33,924 bases of DNA, taken from Desulfobulbus propionicus. Its GTDB lineage: Bacteria; Desulfobacterota; Dissulfuribacteria; Dissulfuribacterales; DYLC01. A program made the translations under genes and the position numbers. This document shows positions 1-17,129 of this stretch, piece after piece. The notes under the pieces are model-generated. The model worked only from the letters and a program-made list of their open reading frames with translations. It had not been told where the DNA came from and did not search any database. The stretch covers positions 1 to 33,924 of the forward strand of contig DYLC01000005.1 of the NCBI GenBank assembly GCA_020722285.1, given 5' to 3'. Position 1 is the stretch's first letter. Each line of letters starts with the position of its first letter.

Positions 1-2
1 CT

Positions 3-143
3 TCCGCTAATATGGGCTCTGTGGATATTCAAAACTCTAATGTAAAGGGCACTGTATCCAATAAGGCAGACATCAAGAATGCCGCCAACATTGCTATAGG
101 CGCTGGCGCTTCCGCTGACATGGGTTCAGTTGTAATCAAGTAG
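3..143 (+). CDS. C-terminal end of a repeat-containing, probably secreted protein (36-aa repeat; 5' end outside window)
   Basis: Frame 3 translation SANMGSVDIQNSNVKGTVSNKADIKNAANIAIGAGASADMGSVVIK*; the SA[ND]MGSV.I motif recurs after 36 residues; stop TAG at 141-143. Confidence 0.75.
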   Translation, partial: SANMGSVDIQNSNVKGTVSNKADIKNAANIAIGAGASADMGSVVIK

Positions 144-180
144 TTTTACTGACACTATCTAAATATCAGTCAAATTGTCT

Positions 181-220
181 CGTGGTGGCTATCAAAAGAC
201 AGCCACCACGAAATTTTTTT
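181..220 (+). terminator. Rho-independent terminator
   Basis: Perfect 10-bp stem CGTGGTGGCT / AGCCACCACG with 10-nt loop (atcaaaagac), followed by AAATTTTTTT. Confidence 0.88.
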
Positions 221-230
221 GAGGTTCACA

Positions 231-614
231 ATGAAGATTTCTGTCTTTTTTTTCTCAGTTCTTTTGCTGTGTTTAATAGGTTTCTCTTTGTCTGCCATCG
301 GAGATGACTTGAATGATGGCATATCCAAATACACTGAAGAAGGTATTGGCAAAGACAATGACGTTTTTGAAAAAGATATCAATATCAAATACTTAAAAAT
401 GAAAGCTGCAGGCAAGTCATCGGCCGCAAAACAAAAAGCAGAGGCAGAAGAGCAGGAAAAGTTTGCTGAGATGTATAAAAAGGAAAGGGAAAAAGAGCTT
501 GAACAGCTTAAAAAGACACAGCAGGCGTCACAATCAAATAATTCAAACCCAGTCAATTCGATCAAGCAGGCGGGTGAAGTTCAATCTGCTGCCAGCAAAA
601 TGATACCAAGATAA
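231..614 (+). CDS. Small secreted protein with Lys/Glu-rich probable coiled coil
   Basis: ATG at 231 with upstream GAGG; N-terminal hydrophobic signal MKISVFFFSVLLLCLIGFSLSA; KKEREKELEQLKK-type charged region. Confidence 0.7.
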   Translation: MKISVFFFSVLLLCLIGFSLSAIGDDLNDGISKYTEEGIGKDNDVFEKDINIKYLKMKAAGKSSAAKQKAEAEEQEKFAEMYKKEREKELEQLKKTQQASQSNNSNPVNSIKQAGEVQSAASKMIPR

Positions 615-628
615 TAAATGGGGTAACT

Positions 629-943
629 ATGCAATATCACAAAGGCATGGCTATTAGTTTATTTGTATTTACAACCTGTGCATTTTCACTTGCAGCCTAT
701 GCAGACAACAAAATAATTTCCGGCGCAAAATCAGGTGATGTAATCAGTAATAAAAGTGTGGAGTTGCAGCCAGGTACAAAGGTAAAAGGCGATATCATTA
801 TCGTTCCTGACAAGAAAAGCAAACATGAAATAGAAGAGCAAGCTGCAATGGGGGAAGATGTGAACAGTGTCATACTTGGAAAAGGCAGCAAGGTAAAGGG
901 TGATGTCGTCATACTGCCTGACAAACCAAATTTGAAATGGTAA
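629..943 (+). CDS. Small secreted protein with two 37-residue-spaced beta-type repeats (GTKVKGDIIIVPDK / GSKVKGDVVILPDK)
   Basis: ATG at 629 preceded by GGGG; signal peptide ending AAYA; internal repeat SVELQPGTKVKGDIIIVPDKK / SVILGKGSKVKGDVVILPDKP. Confidence 0.75.
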   Translation: MQYHKGMAISLFVFTTCAFSLAAYADNKIISGAKSGDVISNKSVELQPGTKVKGDIIIVPDKKSKHEIEEQAAMGEDVNSVILGKGSKVKGDVVILPDKPNLKW

Positions 944-985
944 CCAGATAACATTTATATATTACAGAAAGGGTGGGATTATCTT

Positions 986-2428
986 ATGGCTTTTGTAAAA
1001 AAACTTAAAACAAAGACATCCTGGTGTCTCAAGGCGGTTTTGATAGGCTGTGCTTCTATGGCGCTGGTGTCATGCGAAGGCGATCCTGGCAAGGTAGAGG
1101 TAGAGCTAAAAGAGACTGCTGCCTATACCAAAATTACTTCCTACACCAAGGCGCTTAGAGATATAGGCATGATGTCAGAGATATATGGAACTGGAGCTCT
1201 AAGAATCCTTGCAAGCCCTATTGGAGACAACACAGGTTCCTCTATGCCAACAGGTGGAGAGATACCAAGGGATATAACAGAGATGATGAAGAGTGCTCTC
1301 AATGCCATTGGAGGCAATGTTCTCTACATCCCTTATGACCCATCCTTTATCCAAAACTCGATGGTTACAGGTTATTCAGCCTTTGAAGACAAGATAAGCC
1401 CTGATGTCGTGGTTACAGGAGGCATCACCGAGTTTGACAGAGGTCTTGAGACCCGCGGCAAGGGTACAGAGGCAGGATTCGAGGCTGACATAAATATCGG
1501 AAGCAATGCTCCTGTGTCAGGAAAGGTCGGATTTGACTATTCGGATGTGAACAAATCAGGGCTTGCAAGAATAACTTTAGACTTCAATCTGGTAAACTTC
1601 AGAACGATGGCCGGCATTCCAAGGATGAATGCAGTAAACAGCATTGAGGTACACAAGGCAATGGCCGAGAAGGAGCTTGGTGTCACCCTTTTTGGAGCCA
1701 ACTTTGGACGCCAAGGCTCCATAAAAAAGGTACAGGGTCGTCACGCAGCGGTCAGGCTTCTGGTGGAATTGAGCATGATCCAGGTAGTAGGAAAATACTC
1801 TGTGCTTCCTTACTGGAGGGTGTTGGGCGAGGATGCCCAGCCTGATGATGTCGTAACAGATGCATTTATTAAGGGGTATTACAAAATGGCCCCCGCAGAT
1901 CAAATAGCCGCTGTTCAGGAATGGCTGTTCCTGCATGGCAATGACATCCAGATCAATGGCACATTGGATGCTTTAACGATCTCTGCAATCCAGAGGTTCA
2001 ACCCGTCTTTTTCAGGCGCAAATGGGATGGTGGATGCTGATACTGCATCAAAGATTTATATGAGTATACCGATTGATAATAATGCTTATGGCAGACGGAT
2101 GATGCTTGCAAGTGGCACATATACAGCTCCTGCTTCGCTGCCTGCCGCCCCTGCACCGGAGTATGTCCCATCAGTAGCTGTAGCGCCTGCGCCAGCTCCT
2201 TCTGCACATGTCCCTGTGGAAGAAGCGCCTCCTGTGCAGGCAAAACCGCAGCAGGCGCCTATTGCAGCAGCTCCGCCGCCAACACCACAGCCCAAACCTG
2301 CACAGGCAGCAGCTCAACCGAGGCAACCTGTGTCAACAGTGGAAACTGCACAGGTCGGAGGCGTTAAGCGACAGACTACGAAGAGTAGCCGTTCTATTGG
2401 GCGGATGCTTGGCGATTCGGATTGGTAG
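986..2428 (+). CDS. CsgG/HfaB-like outer-membrane lipoprotein with C-terminal peptidoglycan-binding-like domain and Pro/Ala-rich tail
   Basis: Lipobox ALVSC|E; CsgG/HfaB-like region (ARITLDFNLVN...GRHAAVRLLVELSMIQVVGKYSVLPYWRVL); PG_binding_1-like VQEWLFLHGNDIQINGTLDALTISAIQRFNPSF...DADTASKIY; Pro/Ala-rich segment after that. Confidence 0.75.
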   Translation: MAFVKKLKTKTSWCLKAVLIGCASMALVSCEGDPGKVEVELKETAAYTKITSYTKALRDIGMMSEIYGTGALRILASPIGDNTGSSMPTGGEIPRDITEMMKSALNAIGGNVLYIPYDPSFIQNSMVTGYSAFEDKISPDVVVTGGITEFDRGLETRGKGTEAGFEADINIGSNAPVSGKVGFDYSDVNKSGLARITLDFNLVNFRTMAGIPRMNAVNSIEVHKAMAEKELGVTLFGANFGRQGSIKKVQGRHAAVRLLVELSMIQVVGKYSVLPYWRVLGEDAQPDDVVTDAFIKGYYKMAPADQIAAVQEWLFLHGNDIQINGTLDALTISAIQRFNPSFSGANGMVDADTASKIYMSIPIDNNAYGRRMMLASGTYTAPASLPAAPAPEYVPSVAVAPAPAPSAHVPVEEAPPVQAKPQQAPIAAAPPPTPQPKPAQAAAQPRQPVSTVETAQVGGVKRQTTKSSRSIGRMLGDSDW

Positions 2429-2430
2429 CC

Positions 2431-2961
2431 ATGAAAAAATACCTGCTTACAGTATCTTTTGTTAGTTTCAGCGCCATGCTTTTGTTTGACAATACCTCCT
2501 ATGCGGGCAACAAAAAAATGGTGGGGGACGAGGCAACCAGGCTGAATACTTTAAATAAAGAGATTGTAGCGTCACAACCTGACTTACCAATGGATGGGAA
2601 AGTCTATCTCTCAGGGAATGTCAAATACAAAAATGGCAAGCCTCATTTTGAGGGAACAAAAAAAATTATTAAAGGCAAAAAAGAAACGGCGACAGCCATA
2701 CCAAACAAAAATCCTTCTGCACCAGTGGAACTGATGGCTGTTGTCCCCAGGTTTGATGTGGAACTTGGGAGGACATTTGAGCAGATGTCAGACATTGTAG
2801 CTATCAAGGTCAAGCTTGGGAGCAGCGGGGGATTTAAAGGCGTTTCTGACGGCATTGTCGTTGACAGCGCACATTTTGATGTGGTTGGAATGAAACACAG
2901 CGGCATAAAAACCTGTATGGTCAAGGAGGAAAATATCTATGTTGGCGCACCGAAACCTTAA
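2431..2961 (+). CDS. Secreted protein of unknown function (CsgG-locus accessory)
   Basis: ATG at 2431, 2 nt after upstream stop; signal peptide MKKYLLTVSFVSFSAMLLFDNTSYA; mature N-terminus GNKKMV. Confidence 0.7.
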   Translation: MKKYLLTVSFVSFSAMLLFDNTSYAGNKKMVGDEATRLNTLNKEIVASQPDLPMDGKVYLSGNVKYKNGKPHFEGTKKIIKGKKETATAIPNKNPSAPVELMAVVPRFDVELGRTFEQMSDIVAIKVKLGSSGGFKGVSDGIVVDSAHFDVVGMKHSGIKTCMVKEENIYVGAPKP

Positions 2962-3682
2962 TATCTCTGTATTCCTGTTAGCCTTTTTTTTAGTGGCTGG
3001 ACTGGAAGGAATGGCATTGGCAGGCAACAAACGCATTATGAGCATCAACGCAGCCAGAGTGACTGCGGAAAGGGCACTTGTGGAAACTGTCTATGGACTT
3101 AAGCTCAGGGCTACTGAGGAGGTTCAGGATATGATTGCCACAAATTTTGAAGGAAAAACAGAATCAAAGACGTCTGCAATGATGAAGGGGGTCAAGTTCG
3201 AGGAAATGGTTTATGACCCCCAGAAGGATATAGCCAAGACTGTTGCGAGCGTCACTTTGACGGAAATTACGAATGTTAATGGTGATACCATACCACTTGG
3301 CAACAAAACATTCAGACGTGTAGGCTTTGGCACCTCATCTCCAGAGACAGCAGGCCCGCTTAAGGCAATGCGCGCTGCAGAAATTGACGCTTATAAGCAA
3401 CTAATGAAGCAGTTAGTGGGTTTTCAACTGGAAAGCCAGACAACAGTGGAAAACTACATGCTCACCTCTGATATCATCAGGACAAAGGTGATGGCGACCT
3501 TATTTATGGCGGAAATCTCTGAATATGGCTGGACAAAAGAAGGTGATGCCTATGTCAAGATGGTTCTCAACATAAAAGATGTGTCTGAAATGCTTGGGGA
3601 GAATCTTGTATCTGACAGCGAGACACTTGAGGTCGAAGGCTGGGGCGCACAGCAAGACGATTACAAAAAGGCTAAAAAATAG
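2939..3682 (+). CDS. Secreted LPP20-like protein with apparent internal duplication
   Basis: SD AAGGAGGAAAATATCTATG; signal peptide ending ALA; AMRAAEIDAYKQLMKQLVGFQLES... typical of LPP20/FlgP-like domains, with related N-terminal half INAARVTAERALVETVYGLKLRA. Confidence 0.7.
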   Translation: MLAHRNLNISVFLLAFFLVAGLEGMALAGNKRIMSINAARVTAERALVETVYGLKLRATEEVQDMIATNFEGKTESKTSAMMKGVKFEEMVYDPQKDIAKTVASVTLTEITNVNGDTIPLGNKTFRRVGFGTSSPETAGPLKAMRAAEIDAYKQLMKQLVGFQLESQTTVENYMLTSDIIRTKVMATLFMAEISEYGWTKEGDAYVKMVLNIKDVSEMLGENLVSDSETLEVEGWGAQQDDYKKAKK

Positions 3683-3694
3683 CGAGGTGGTTGT

Positions 3695-4009
3695 ATGAAC
3701 CAGGTCAGTCAGGAAAAAATCAAGATTTTTTTGTTAGGTGTTATAGCGTCCCTGTTGGTCATAATACTTCTCGGAGTGGCCGGAGGAAATCTGAATGAAG
3801 GAGCCTACTATGGTCCGCCAAACTATGGAAGATATCAGATAGCTTCATGGGGCACACAGCTTGGACCGAGCTCAGGGATTCTGGGAGTTTTTGTTGTGGA
3901 TACTGTTTCAGGAGAAACCAAAACTGTCTATAGCAGGATTTATGGACAGGAGGACAATGGGGTTACGCTAAGAAATGAACTCTATAAGCCATTTACTGCA
4001 ATTAAATAA
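3695..4009 (+). CDS. Small membrane-anchored protein of unknown function
   Basis: GAGGT upstream; single N-terminal TM IFLLGVIASLLVIILLGVAGG. Confidence 0.6.
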   Translation: MNQVSQEKIKIFLLGVIASLLVIILLGVAGGNLNEGAYYGPPNYGRYQIASWGTQLGPSSGILGVFVVDTVSGETKTVYSRIYGQEDNGVTLRNELYKPFTAIK

Positions 4010-4018
4010 GGTGTAATC

Positions 4019-4843
4019 ATGCTTAACAGTCTGTTATCCAAATTGTCATTAGGGGTTGCTATGACCAGTGTGTCATGGATGTTTGGGGTCTCTGGAGTAT
4101 ATGCTGACAGCATCGTCATCGGCGAACGAGGGATAGTGCTGGATTCCAGCAGTGGTTCTAAAGTGGTTGTAGGTAAAAATATAGGAAAAGTATCTTCCAA
4201 CGTGGACTCTATCTCCATCAATGGAGGCAAGGCAGTGACAGGCAGAATTTCCGGAGACTGTGAGGAGGGCAGTGGTAAAGTAAAAACAGAAACCCGTATA
4301 GTTTCTGGTTTTAAATCCATAAATGTGGAAGGCGCCTACGATCTTGTAATAACCGCAGGCAGTCCTTTTTCTCTGAAAATCACATCAGATGACAATCTCC
4401 TGCCCTTCATCAAAACCGCAGTGGAAAACGGGACACTAACTGTGACATCTTCAAGATCAATTTGCACTAAAGCTGACCTTAAAATTCAGGTAACAATGCC
4501 GGAATTAACTACTCTGACATCTGAAGGTTCTACAGATATAAACGTAATGGGCGTAAAGAACAAGAAGCTTAATCTCAATATAGGGGGATCTGGCACCCTT
4601 ACAGCAGCAGGCGAAACGCAGCAGCTTGAAATAAATGCATCAGGCTCTGTTGATATAACTGCGACTGAACTCAAGGCAAAGACTGTATTTGTAAAGATGG
4701 AAGGGGCTGGCGATGCAAAGGTCTCTGCATCGGATACCTTGAAAGTCAACCTGGAAGGCGCTGGCTCTGTATTGTACAAAGGAAAACCCCAAATCACCAA
4801 GACAATTGATGGGGTCGGTGAGGTTGAGCCTTTAACCGAGTAA
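4019..4843 (+). CDS. Secreted DUF2807-like (head GIN domain / putative autotransporter adhesin) protein
   Basis: SD AAGGTG; signal peptide to YA; FKSINVEGAYDLVITAGSPFSLKITSDDNLLPFIKTAVENGTLTV ... NIGGSGTLTAAG ... MEGAGDAKV ... LEGAGSVLYKG pattern. Confidence 0.7.
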   Translation: MLNSLLSKLSLGVAMTSVSWMFGVSGVYADSIVIGERGIVLDSSSGSKVVVGKNIGKVSSNVDSISINGGKAVTGRISGDCEEGSGKVKTETRIVSGFKSINVEGAYDLVITAGSPFSLKITSDDNLLPFIKTAVENGTLTVTSSRSICTKADLKIQVTMPELTTLTSEGSTDINVMGVKNKKLNLNIGGSGTLTAAGETQQLEINASGSVDITATELKAKTVFVKMEGAGDAKVSASDTLKVNLEGAGSVLYKGKPQITKTIDGVGEVEPLTE

Positions 4844-4845
4844 TA

Positions 4846-6357
4846 ATGTCAGATGATTTCAAAAACGCTGCCAATCACACTATGGCTGTGCAGTGTTGTC
4901 TCTTTTTCGCATTTCTTGTTATCAGTTTACTCTCTTACTCTTTACTCTTTGCATCAGTTAAAGATGCTGTCGTAAAAATTTATACAGTCTCAAACGCCTA
5001 TAACTATCATGAACCATGGCAAATGATGGGTCAAAAATCCAGTCATGGTTCTGGTTTCATTATTGAGGGAGAAAAAATTCTTACCAATGCCCATGTAGTA
5101 GCTTGGGCAACCTTTGTGCAGGTTCGACGCTCAGGTGAGGCAAAAAAATACACGGCAAAGGTGGAAGTAGTAGCTCATGAATGTGATCTTGCAGTTCTTT
5201 CTCTGGAAGACAAGAGTTTTTTCAATGGGATCACTCCTTTGAAAATATCATCTCTTCCCGAATTGCAGGATGAAGTTGTGGTTTATGGCTTTCCTGCCGG
5301 TGGTGACAAGTTAAGTCTTACAAAGGGTGTCGTTTCAAGAATAGAACACATTATCTACAGCCATAGCGGGGCCTACCTGCTGGCAGGCCAAATTGACGCA
5401 TCCATAAACAGTGGAAGCAGTGGCGGTCCTGTGCTGAAAGGCGAAGACGTTGTGGGAGTGGCGTTTCAGGGGATGCTGAGGAGTGGTTTTGAAAACGTAG
5501 GCTACATTATCCCTGCCCCGATAGTCAAACATTTTCTTAAAGACATCCAAAATGGCAAATATGACGGCACTCCTGAACTCGGGATATTCATGCAAAAAAT
5601 GGAAAATCCAGCTTTGCGCAAAAAATATGGGATGTCGGACATCGAAACAGGTGTTCTTATAAACAGAGTTTATCCTGACAGCCCGACTAAAGATAAAGTT
5701 CTTGTAGATGATGTTATCTTGAAAGTTGACGGTATCACTGTGGAAAACGACGGAACAGTTGAGTTTAGAAAGGGAGAGCGGACATTTCTTGGCCATCTCA
5801 TCCAGACAAAATACATCAATGATATAGTTACAATTGATCTCCTTAGAAATACTCAGAGAATTAAGGTTGATGTCAAACTGGAAAAACCAATTGGTTGTGA
5901 AAGGCTTGTACCCAATATGAAGTACGATATGCAACCGACTTATCTTATCTATGGAGGGTTGGTATTTACTCCGCTAACCCTGAATTATTTAAAAGAATAT
6001 GGAGATGAAAACGACTGGTCTGCCAGAGCACCTTCACATCTTGTGCATTATTATTTAAACGAAGAGCCTAAACAGGACAGGCGGAGTATAATAATCATCA
6101 GCAAGGTGCTGGCTGATGAGAGTAACATTGGGTATCATGCCTATCAGGACGGCGTGGTAGTAAAAATCAATGGCAGACATATCAATACAATAGATGATGT
6201 GGTCAAAGCACTATCGGAAAACAGCGGAAAATTTGTTGAAGTAGAAGATACAAAAGGCTATCGCCTGGTACTTGACAGACAGATGGCCATTGAGGCAAAA
6301 AATAACATACTCAAACGTTACAAGATTACAGCGGATCGTTCACTTGACCTGCTATAA
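4846..6357 (+). CDS. Deg/HtrA-type trypsin-like serine protease with PDZ-like regions (Deg9-like)
   Basis: Catalytic triad motifs TNAHVV, CDLAVL, INSGSSGGPV; PDZ-like GVLINRVYPDSPT...DVILKVDG; N-terminal TM anchor. Confidence 0.85.
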   Translation: MSDDFKNAANHTMAVQCCLFFAFLVISLLSYSLLFASVKDAVVKIYTVSNAYNYHEPWQMMGQKSSHGSGFIIEGEKILTNAHVVAWATFVQVRRSGEAKKYTAKVEVVAHECDLAVLSLEDKSFFNGITPLKISSLPELQDEVVVYGFPAGGDKLSLTKGVVSRIEHIIYSHSGAYLLAGQIDASINSGSSGGPVLKGEDVVGVAFQGMLRSGFENVGYIIPAPIVKHFLKDIQNGKYDGTPELGIFMQKMENPALRKKYGMSDIETGVLINRVYPDSPTKDKVLVDDVILKVDGITVENDGTVEFRKGERTFLGHLIQTKYINDIVTIDLLRNTQRIKVDVKLEKPIGCERLVPNMKYDMQPTYLIYGGLVFTPLTLNYLKEYGDENDWSARAPSHLVHYYLNEEPKQDRRSIIIISKVLADESNIGYHAYQDGVVVKINGRHINTIDDVVKALSENSGKFVEVEDTKGYRLVLDRQMAIEAKNNILKRYKITADRSLDLL

Positions 6358-7251
6358 GCAGGCGCTGGAAATGGTTTCTGAATCCTCAATAGCTGAAAGC
6401 GTTATCAATTCCCAAGCGCTGACATCCCGTTTTAACGCCTCCATCAAGGATTGATGCATTGTGTGCCCACTTTTATATGCGGTAATCTTTCCTATAATTG
6501 GATGCCCCAACAGATACATATCGCCTACGAGGTCAAGCGCCTTATGTCTTGCGAATTCATCAGGGTAGCGAAGACCTTCAGGATTCAAAATGCTATCATC
6601 TCCCACTACTACAGCATTTTCCAGAGAACCCCCTCTGGCAAGTCCATTTTTTTTGAGAAAATCAACTTCATGAAAAAAACCAAATGTCCTTGCCTTACTG
6701 ATTTGTTTTTCAAACAGACAGGGGGTCATCAAATCAACTGATATCTTTTGCTTTGATATAACTGGATGTTTGAAATCCACTTCAACGTCCAAAGCAAAAT
6801 GATCCCACGGTTCAATGGCGATACATTTGTCATCCTGAGTGATTTCTATTTTTTTAAGTATATTGATGTATTTTTTTTCTATATGCTGTCTTGACAAGCC
6901 AGTATTTTTTAAATACTGAATAAACGGATAAGCACTGCCATCCATTGCAGGAATTTCAGGGCCATCAATTTGCACCACAGCATTGTCTATTCCAGTGCTG
7001 AAAAATGCTGCCATGAGGTGCTCTACTGTCGATATCGTGCCTGCCTGTGTCCCAATGGTTGTAGCAAACCTGGTATCTTTTATCTGGTTTACGGAAGCTT
7101 GAAATAAAGCCATTGGATTTATATCAGTTCGGATAAAACGAATGCCGCTGTTTACAGCCGCAGGCTGAACAGTCACTTTTACATTGGCTCCAGAGTGAAG
7201 ACCAATTCCAGTAAACCTGACAGGAGATTTAATTGTCTGCTGAAAAATCAT
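6352..7251 (-). CDS. lpxC: UDP-3-O-acyl-N-acetylglucosamine deacetylase
   Basis: QQTIKSPVRFTGIGLHSGANVKVTVQPA, STVEHLMAAF, DGSAYPF, HKALDLVGDMYLLGHPIIG; start chosen at MIFQQ with GGTGAG upstream (ORF can extend to 7263). Confidence 0.93.
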   Translation of the reverse strand: MIFQQTIKSPVRFTGIGLHSGANVKVTVQPAAVNSGIRFIRTDINPMALFQASVNQIKDTRFATTIGTQAGTISTVEHLMAAFFSTGIDNAVVQIDGPEIPAMDGSAYPFIQYLKNTGLSRQHIEKKYINILKKIEITQDDKCIAIEPWDHFALDVEVDFKHPVISKQKISVDLMTPCLFEKQISKARTFGFFHEVDFLKKNGLARGGSLENAVVVGDDSILNPEGLRYPDEFARHKALDLVGDMYLLGHPIIGKITAYKSGHTMHQSLMEALKRDVSAWELITLSAIEDSETISSACL

Positions 7252-7415
7252 TAATCTCACCATAGCAAATTATTGATCGTGAATAAAATGTAATTTGCAT
7301 GGATAATGCCAAAATATGTCAAATCAATTTCTATAAAAAATTCTGATGGTTATCATTGGCTGGCCGATTTTGCATAGATATTGAGACGCAAAAGGCTCGT
7401 TCGAACAACAAAGCA

Positions 7416-15797: not shown

Positions 15798-15943
15798 GAA
15801 CTGCCCACCCTTGAAGAACAGGAAAAGACCTAATAGAATGGGCGCTGAATGAAGCGGTTGACAACAAGACAGAGGCAGCCCGGATCCTTGGTATTGACAG
15901 GGTATCGCTTTGGAGAAAACTCAAAAAATTCGGGATGGAATAA
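15798..15943 (+). pseudogene. Frameshifted C-terminal remnant of a sigma-54-type response regulator (Fis-type HTH)
   Basis: ELPTLEEQEK in one frame continues after an apparent 1-nt deletion as DLIEWALNEAVDNKTEAARILGIDRVSLWRKLKKFGME*. Confidence 0.7.
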
Positions 15944-15947
15944 GGTC

Positions 15948-17129
15948 ATGTTCAACATCATTGAGCAGTATCCAGTTAAAAAGCTTTATAACCTCGTAAG
16001 ACTTCAAAGAGCAGGGGATATCCTGCTTTCAGGGCTTAAGATGACGTTATCTGAGGTCAATCTCCTGCTGACAGATCAGAATGGAATAAAAGCATTGAAT
16101 GAGAAATGGCTGCAAAGGCCGTGGCCTACAAATGTGATTTCATTTTCTCCTGCATATGATGAACATGCCCCGATCTCCCACCAAAACGGTTTCCTCGGCG
16201 ACATTGTGATTTCAGTGGATGCAGGATGCAGGGAGGCTGAAGCACAGGGAACCGATCTCACGACCAGAATCGAACAGCTTCTGATCCATGGCATAGCGCA
16301 TCTTCTTGGTGAAGATCACGAACAGGGAAAGCAGGCTGCCGGGAAACAGGCGGAGAAGGAATTTGAACTGCAAAAACTACTTATGAAAGGCGGGATGCAA
16401 ATGGCGGAACTTTGCGTAAATATTGACCACATTGCAACTATCAGACAGGCCAGGGGAGGGGTTGAGCCGGACCCTGTCCATGCAGCCACTCTCGTGGAAC
16501 TTGCCGGTGCAGACGGCATTGTCGTGCATCTTCGTGAGGACAGGCGTCATATCCAGGACAGAGATTTGAAACTGTTGCGGGAGATCGTGCAGACAAGGCT
16601 GAACATGGAGATGGCGGGCACAAAAGAGATGGTGTCCATAGCCTGTGATGTCAAGCCCGATATAGTCACTCTTGTTCCTGAAAAAAGACAGGAACTCACC
16701 ACTGAAGGTGGGCTGGACGTAATAAAAAATCTTGTTGCCACAGGCGATGCAGTTGCAACCCTGAAGGCTGCCGGAATACAGGTCAGCATTTTCATTAACC
16801 CTGATAAAAAACAGGTTGAGAGCTCATTTTCCATCGGAGTGGACTGCGTGGAAATACACACAGGCCGCTATGCTGACGCAGACAATGTGGCTGCACAGGA
16901 TGAAGAGTTTGAAAGGATCGTAGAGACTGCTCGAATCGCAAAAGAGTATGGCCTCAGAGTCCACGCCGGTCATGGTCTCAACTACCGCAACGTCGCAAGG
17001 CTTTCGCCAGTGGCAGACATTGACGAGTTTTCCATCGGACATTCGGTCATTGCCCGGGCGGCACTGGTGGGAATGGAGCGGGCTGTCAGGGAGATGCTCT
17101 CGCTTGTAAAACGCGGGATGCCTCTGTGA
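15948..17129 (+). CDS. Single ORF joining YbeY (endoribonuclease/rRNA maturation) and PdxJ (pyridoxine 5'-phosphate synthase)
   Basis: YbeY part 15948..16400 with HGIAHLLGEDHE; PdxJ part from ATG 16401 MAELCVNIDHIATIRQARGGVEPDPVHAATLVELAGADGIVVHLREDRRHIQD; no stop between them. Confidence 0.88.
   Translation: MFNIIEQYPVKKLYNLVRLQRAGDILLSGLKMTLSEVNLLLTDQNGIKALNEKWLQRPWPTNVISFSPAYDEHAPISHQNGFLGDIVISVDAGCREAEAQGTDLTTRIEQLLIHGIAHLLGEDHEQGKQAAGKQAEKEFELQKLLMKGGMQMAELCVNIDHIATIRQARGGVEPDPVHAATLVELAGADGIVVHLREDRRHIQDRDLKLLREIVQTRLNMEMAGTKEMVSIACDVKPDIVTLVPEKRQELTTEGGLDVIKNLVATGDAVATLKAAGIQVSIFINPDKKQVESSFSIGVDCVEIHTGRYADADNVAAQDEEFERIVETARIAKEYGLRVHAGHGLNYRNVARLSPVADIDEFSIGHSVIARAALVGMERAVREMLSLVKRGMPL

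Follow-up and report, generated by a model that had tools for sequence, protein, structure and literature searches.

What kind of system is encoded by a compact run of genes for secreted proteins, in which a CsgG-like lipoprotein follows a repeat protein, and how it relates to curli, Fap and holdfast anchors, is the question raised by the locus analyzed here. The locus lies at the start of the window, the whole stretch of 33,924 nucleotides under study (contig C7, positions 1–33924), which belongs to a draft genome (G000) of 1.69 Mb in 100 contigs. The gene set has the look of a hitherto undescribed relative of the machineries assembling amyloid-like fibres on cell surfaces; in it, a putative curli-like outer-membrane export pore is paired with an unrelated repeat protein. 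In a recent genome survey, loci counted as functional amyloids only where curlin or Fap repeats stood close to further curli or fap genes (PMC12822426). Systems of CsgG type whose subunit differs would escape this rule, and such fibre systems may therefore be more numerous and more diverse than has been counted. No description of the gene set was found in the open-access literature, which was the scope of the search (subscription papers and preprints lay outside it). A conserved CsgG-type export operon with its own, predicted solenoid subunit is presented as real and apparently undescribed.

Materials and Methods

The gene set, its conservation, the relationship to CsgG, the solenoid prediction and the hairpin were established by computation. 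Signal peptides, the lipobox and the membrane anchor were read by eye, not with a predictor. Conservation was assessed with profiles of the operon genes run over the fetched loci, of which 14 had intact upstream context: the window, L009, L011, L012, L013, L014, L015, L029, L030, L031, L046, L047, L048 and L049. Among these, L030 has a weak repeat match (E=0.002), and the 46-residue repeat fragment of the window, being under the size cut of the script, was counted from separate ORF and contig evidence. Outside the 14 stand L028 (cut at the contig start), L050 (a lone second g3) and the distant L032–L034. The assignment to two phyla rests on the Nitrospiraceae label of L014 and on non-overlapping genome sets.

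Results

Locus organization

Positions 1–6357 hold the cut-off 3' end of a gene with 36-residue repeats, followed by eight whole ORFs (g1 to g8), all on the + strand, with distances of -23 to +42 nt among the eight. The tight packing reported in the first-pass annotation was found as described, its nine genes only if the truncated one is counted, since eight follow the repeat gene. The latter is represented by the C-terminal 46 codons of the putative exported subunit (3–143), as the contig begins within the gene. The end of g8 is convergent with lpxC (6352–7263, named by eye).

The repeat gene and g1 are separated by 87 nt, which contain a strong hairpin, a stem-loop followed by a T run (180–211, + strand; z -5.7 against dinucleotide shuffles). 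Situated between subunit gene and machinery, it may act as attenuator, terminator or processing hairpin. The same gap folds with z of -2.3 to -7.1 (simple shuffles) in 13 of the 14 loci, the hairpins of which are unrelated to one another in sequence. This suggests selection for uneven expression, the subunit being made in excess over the machinery. Contig C53 of the same genome carries, upstream of the repeat gene, a divergent gene that looks like a regulator of the sigma-54 enhancer-binding type when inspected by eye; a simple pattern search gave no clear sigma-54 promoter.

The repeat protein

About 1.3 repeats are visible in the window (SANMGSV...SADMGSV, spacing 36 residues), and the regular repeat noticed there at the gene end proved common to the relatives. 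The assembly breaks at the repeats: contig C53 (L054, 1–2516) starts inside the N-terminal part of a repeat gene, apparently that of the window; this part comprises 142 codons, shows a signal peptide when read by eye, and has repeats that are almost the same as the ones opening C7. Because no exact overlap of the two contig ends was found, the join of C53 and C7 is a putative one, with repeats presumably missing in between; the sequence upstream of the window thus supplied the N-terminal part, but not a joined complete gene.

Among the sampled genomes the closest relative of the window genome is G001, recorded as 'Deltaproteobacteria bacterium STE_37', whose homologue (L011, 8648–9475) is 275 residues long, with about seven repeats. 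The shortest of the other relatives has two repeats in 93 residues, the longest more than 12 in 656. The consensus of 39 repeats, each of exactly 36 residues, reads N-V-A-I-G-K-G-N-x-A-N-M-G-S-V-x-I-x-N-S-x-V-K-G-x-V-x-N-x-A-N-I-K-x-S-x. AlphaFold predicted a beta-solenoid for the STE_37 protein (mean pLDDT 91, repeats 92–99), in which the strand pattern recurs every 36 residues, corresponding to one turn per repeat. AlphaFold often gives regular repeats high confidence, and therefore the model carries much weight for the local geometry and less for the biology. According to this model the repeat protein is predicted to fold as a stiff beta-solenoid rod.

Curated families gave no credible match to the repeats, and scattered Pfam matches (Hirudin, Adap_comp_sub and others) were judged to be chance. 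A fold search of the solenoid against solved structures returned nothing at E<0.001, the best being pentapeptide-repeat proteins; sequence matches of the repeats to pentapeptide or synthetic solenoid proteins look compositional.

The CsgG-like lipoprotein

The g3 product (986–2428, + strand) is a CsgG-like lipoprotein with a peptidoglycan-binding-like domain at about residues 285–375 and a Pro/Ala-rich tail; the lipobox cysteine is invariant in all 14 g3 sequences. As a single sequence it stays below the cut-off of the Pfam CsgG family (E=0.0017). A profile of 14 relatives, however, aligns with E. coli CsgG in hhalign at 86% (E=5e-6, 230 columns); the alignment runs from the signal peptide across both membrane-hairpin regions as far as the last helix and takes in nearly the full length of CsgG. 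With the signal peptide removed, mature CsgG scored 34.6 against the g3 profile, a value reached by none of 200 shuffles (maximum 27.1) nor by the reversed sequence (20.2). The CsgG-like nature first read from the letters of this gene was thereby borne out, and g3, on the evidence of these profiles, is related to CsgG. That it forms an outer-membrane pore is suggested by the same alignment; as the AlphaFold prediction for g3 was too poor to use (pLDDT 39), the putative pore-forming hairpins are read from sequence alignment alone. A PDB sequence search with the g3 profile gave no match.

PG_binding_1 was matched in seven of 11 g3 relatives at the position of the additional domain (best E=1.4e-4), and weakly by the window protein alone (E=0.07). 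The PDB profile matches of this wall-binding-like domain all lie above E=0.05 and are mostly wall-binding proteins. A second copy of g3 occurs in genome G732 (L050, 8268–9707), with neither a repeat protein nor g1 as neighbour.

Accessory genes

The small secreted protein g1 (231–614; DLDDGISKYTDD...) represents a new family, with no credible match in Pfam, and always lies between the repeat gene and g3. The likewise small and secreted g2 (629–943), found in the window only among the fetched loci, resembles the C-terminal segment of g1 relatives (GSKVKGDVVI) and matches the g1 profile (E=1.9e-5); its match to Bactofilin is weak and below the cut-off (E=2e-4). The secreted g4 (2431–2961, alternative start 2422), which is without known family, is always paired with g5 (2939–3682), a secreted protein that exceeds the Pfam LPP20 cut-off slightly (26.3 versus 25.9 bits). 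LPP20 is matched by seven of nine g5 relatives, and the g5 profile retrieves structures of FlgP-type lipoproteins. The product of g6 (3695–4009) is a small protein with a single N-terminal membrane anchor (GRYQISAWG...VVDTVSGETK). The two last genes were placed by Pfam: g7 (4019–4843) as a secreted DUF2807 (GIN domain) protein with 114 bits, and g8 (4846–6357) as a Deg/HtrA-like serine protease with trypsin domains plus PDZ_3 (146 bits) and catalytic H, D and S motifs by eye; all these genes are on the + strand. The gene set which the first-pass annotation had listed beyond the exporter, with its PG-binding-like, LPP20-like, DUF2807-like and Deg-like members, was therefore recovered by Pfam or by matches of relatives. 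Roles given below to g1, g2 and g4–g8 are guesses from family and position.

Conservation and distribution

The succession of repeat gene, g1 and g3, adjacent and on the same strand, was present in each of the 14 loci whose upstream context is intact, across two phyla, so that the neighbours are kept together in other genomes, a second phylum included, as a fibre locus had been expected to show. This fixed order is the one expected of a substrate and its exporter. Directly after g3, g4 and g5 always occur together (nine loci), while g6 was found in ten loci and g7 and g8 in five each, the g8 of L029 being inverted to the other strand. In L048, which belongs to the same phylum as the Nitrospiraceae record L014, the repeat gene, g1 and g3–g8 stand in the order of the window, with g2 missing.

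Carriers are rare, with 11 of 395 sampled genomes in the phylum of the window (in the two weakest matches the similarity is confined to the wall-binding-like part) and seven of 396, one of them weak, in the other phylum. Most deep forks of the g3 tree lack resolution, but one well-supported branch (100/100) unites a sequence of the window's phylum with two of the other phylum, which requires at least one transfer or an equivalent event. Genomes G401, G174 and G200 have distant versions with altered repeats.

Discussion

Relation to curli

The operon shares with curli a CsgG-like lipoprotein exporter next to a predicted beta-solenoid repeat protein, accompanied by small secreted accessory proteins. 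Curli and FapC subunits, too, are beta-solenoids (PMC10192328; PMC12392863), and the number of CsgA repeats varies freely, too (PMC3521004). However, curlin repeats comprise 22–23 residues with N and Q ladders (PMC10192328), whereas those of the operon have 36 and are without the curlin N-x5-Q motif; g3 carries the extra wall-binding-like domain, and the partners are LPP20, DUF2807 and Deg-like proteins. The early impression that CsgE, CsgF and curlin are missing held across carrier genomes: neither CsgE nor CsgF was detected in any of 12 (E. coli control positive), and curlin repeats (PF07012) were found neither in these genomes (E. coli control working) nor in the repeat proteins, by which curlin membership of the latter was rejected. 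The operon resembles curli in its proposed working but falls outside the curli definition.

Proposed mechanism and alternatives

We consider it fairly likely that the locus is a variant of CsgG-type secretion, that is, an operon dedicated to export and surface assembly of a beta-solenoid subunit. Modelled as a whole on the nucleation-and-secretion pathway of curli, the repeat protein would enter the periplasm by Sec, be held unfolded with the help of the small secreted proteins, and cross the outer membrane via an oligomeric pore of the g3 lipoprotein, fixed to the wall by its peptidoglycan-binding-like domain. At the surface it would fold into rods, which probably stack end to end as a fibre. 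The always present g1, together with g4, may substitute for CsgE, CsgF and CsgB as chaperone, gate or nucleator; the LPP20-like g5 may act as a FlgP-related periplasmic ring or scaffold, and the Deg-like g8 in quality control, removing subunits that are misfolded or not exported. By virtue of the hairpin that follows the subunit gene, many subunits would be made per exporter. Export, fibre formation and an amyloid nature of the repeat protein we infer from this comparison, and an adhesive or amyloid function, as proposed in the first-pass annotation, is plausible for a predicted beta-solenoid that is not a curlin-repeat protein.

Some proteins with the CsgG fold, LpoB among them, do not form pores. 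Accordingly, g3 might act like LpoB or like a ring component of FlgO/FlgP type and hold the solenoid between outer membrane and peptidoglycan, in a periplasmic or outer-membrane-to-wall scaffold. This would suit the peptidoglycan-binding-like domain of g3 as well as g5, which belongs to LPP20, the family of the flagellar disk protein FlgP, and is related to that ring-forming protein, although g5, unlike FlgP, stands in an operon without flagellar genes, always accompanies g4 and lacks a lipobox by eye. The g3 profile covers both membrane-hairpin regions of CsgG, beyond the core, and near-perfect repeats in varying number would more usually be met in the subunit of a polymer; a scaffold is hence regarded as unlikely. 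Still less probable, in our estimation, is a holdfast-type anchor in the manner of HfaABD, where the exported solenoid would tie surface polysaccharide to the cell. A CsgG/HfaB-like outer-membrane lipoprotein and exporter, accessory secreted proteins and the annotation of DUF2807 as adhesin head are in its favour, but the HfaB half of the designation CsgG/HfaB-like is weak: g3 reaches 14.1 bits with the HfaB model, far under its cut-off of 300, and does not qualify as an HfaB equivalog. No NCBIfam match named HfaA or HfaD was obtained for the neighbours, in a library which may not contain such models, and no polysaccharide export genes were recognized by eye beside the operon in the window.

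Descent from known subunits was considered as well, the operon then being a true but divergent curli or Fap system with curlin or FapB/C repeats drifted past recognition. Besides the CsgG exporter, the repeat length speaks for it, being close to the 38–39 residues of Fap repeats, with which the N-x-A-x-G-x-x-N segment is held in common (PMC12392863). In hhalign, though, the 36-residue repeats reached 2% with Fap repeats and below 1% with curlin. Only three of 300 column shuffles scored as well as the Fap alignment, which was made with repeats of solved FapC and of Fap-like proteins from several genomes, so that the register is suggestive and the profile match insignificant; on these two values common descent with Fap is not claimed. 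Fap moreover has almost always exactly three repeats and FapF as exporter (PMC12822426; PMC12392863), as opposed to two to more than 12 contiguous repeats, instead of separated ones, and a CsgG-type exporter here, where no FapF was recognized next to the operon. Together with the absence of curlin repeats, CsgE and CsgF in the carriers, this makes such a descent improbable. An HMMER comparison with FapC fragments was set aside because composition bias spoils its null, and plasmids searched with FapC yielded no match. Fap-like repeat proteins occurring in pairs (FapB/FapC-like) were seen in genomes of the window's phylum (L055, L056, L058 and L059).

Returning to the CsgG-type secretion variant, it might even constitute a separate class of surface fibres beside curli and Fap, possessing an unrelated beta-solenoid subunit with 36-residue turns, a wall-anchored CsgG-type pore and its own accessory set, and occurring in scattered members of two or more phyla, now and then by transfer. 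This wider proposal is put forward tentatively, as somewhat less likely than not. For structural work and materials, the long near-perfect repeats offer a simple modular rod.

Additional loci

A second gene group (L010, on contig C74 of the window's genome, 1–6216; L011, 14863–21332) starts with another 36-residue-repeat protein and continues with several consecutive secreted proteins that resemble CsgG, LpoB and LPP20. It lies directly downstream of the Deg-like protease in STE_37 and on a separate contig in the genome of the window. In L033 (6498–11450) and L034 (7830–12401), distant g3 relatives are accompanied by repeat proteins that are short and altered and by additional secreted proteins. 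They adjoin the genes of a large secreted protein and of an ABC-type ATPase, and represent perhaps another variant of the system. Elsewhere in the window, inspection by eye of one ORF of 426 residues (15849–17129) suggests YbeY joined in frame to a downstream PdxJ, by either a fusion or the loss of a stop codon.
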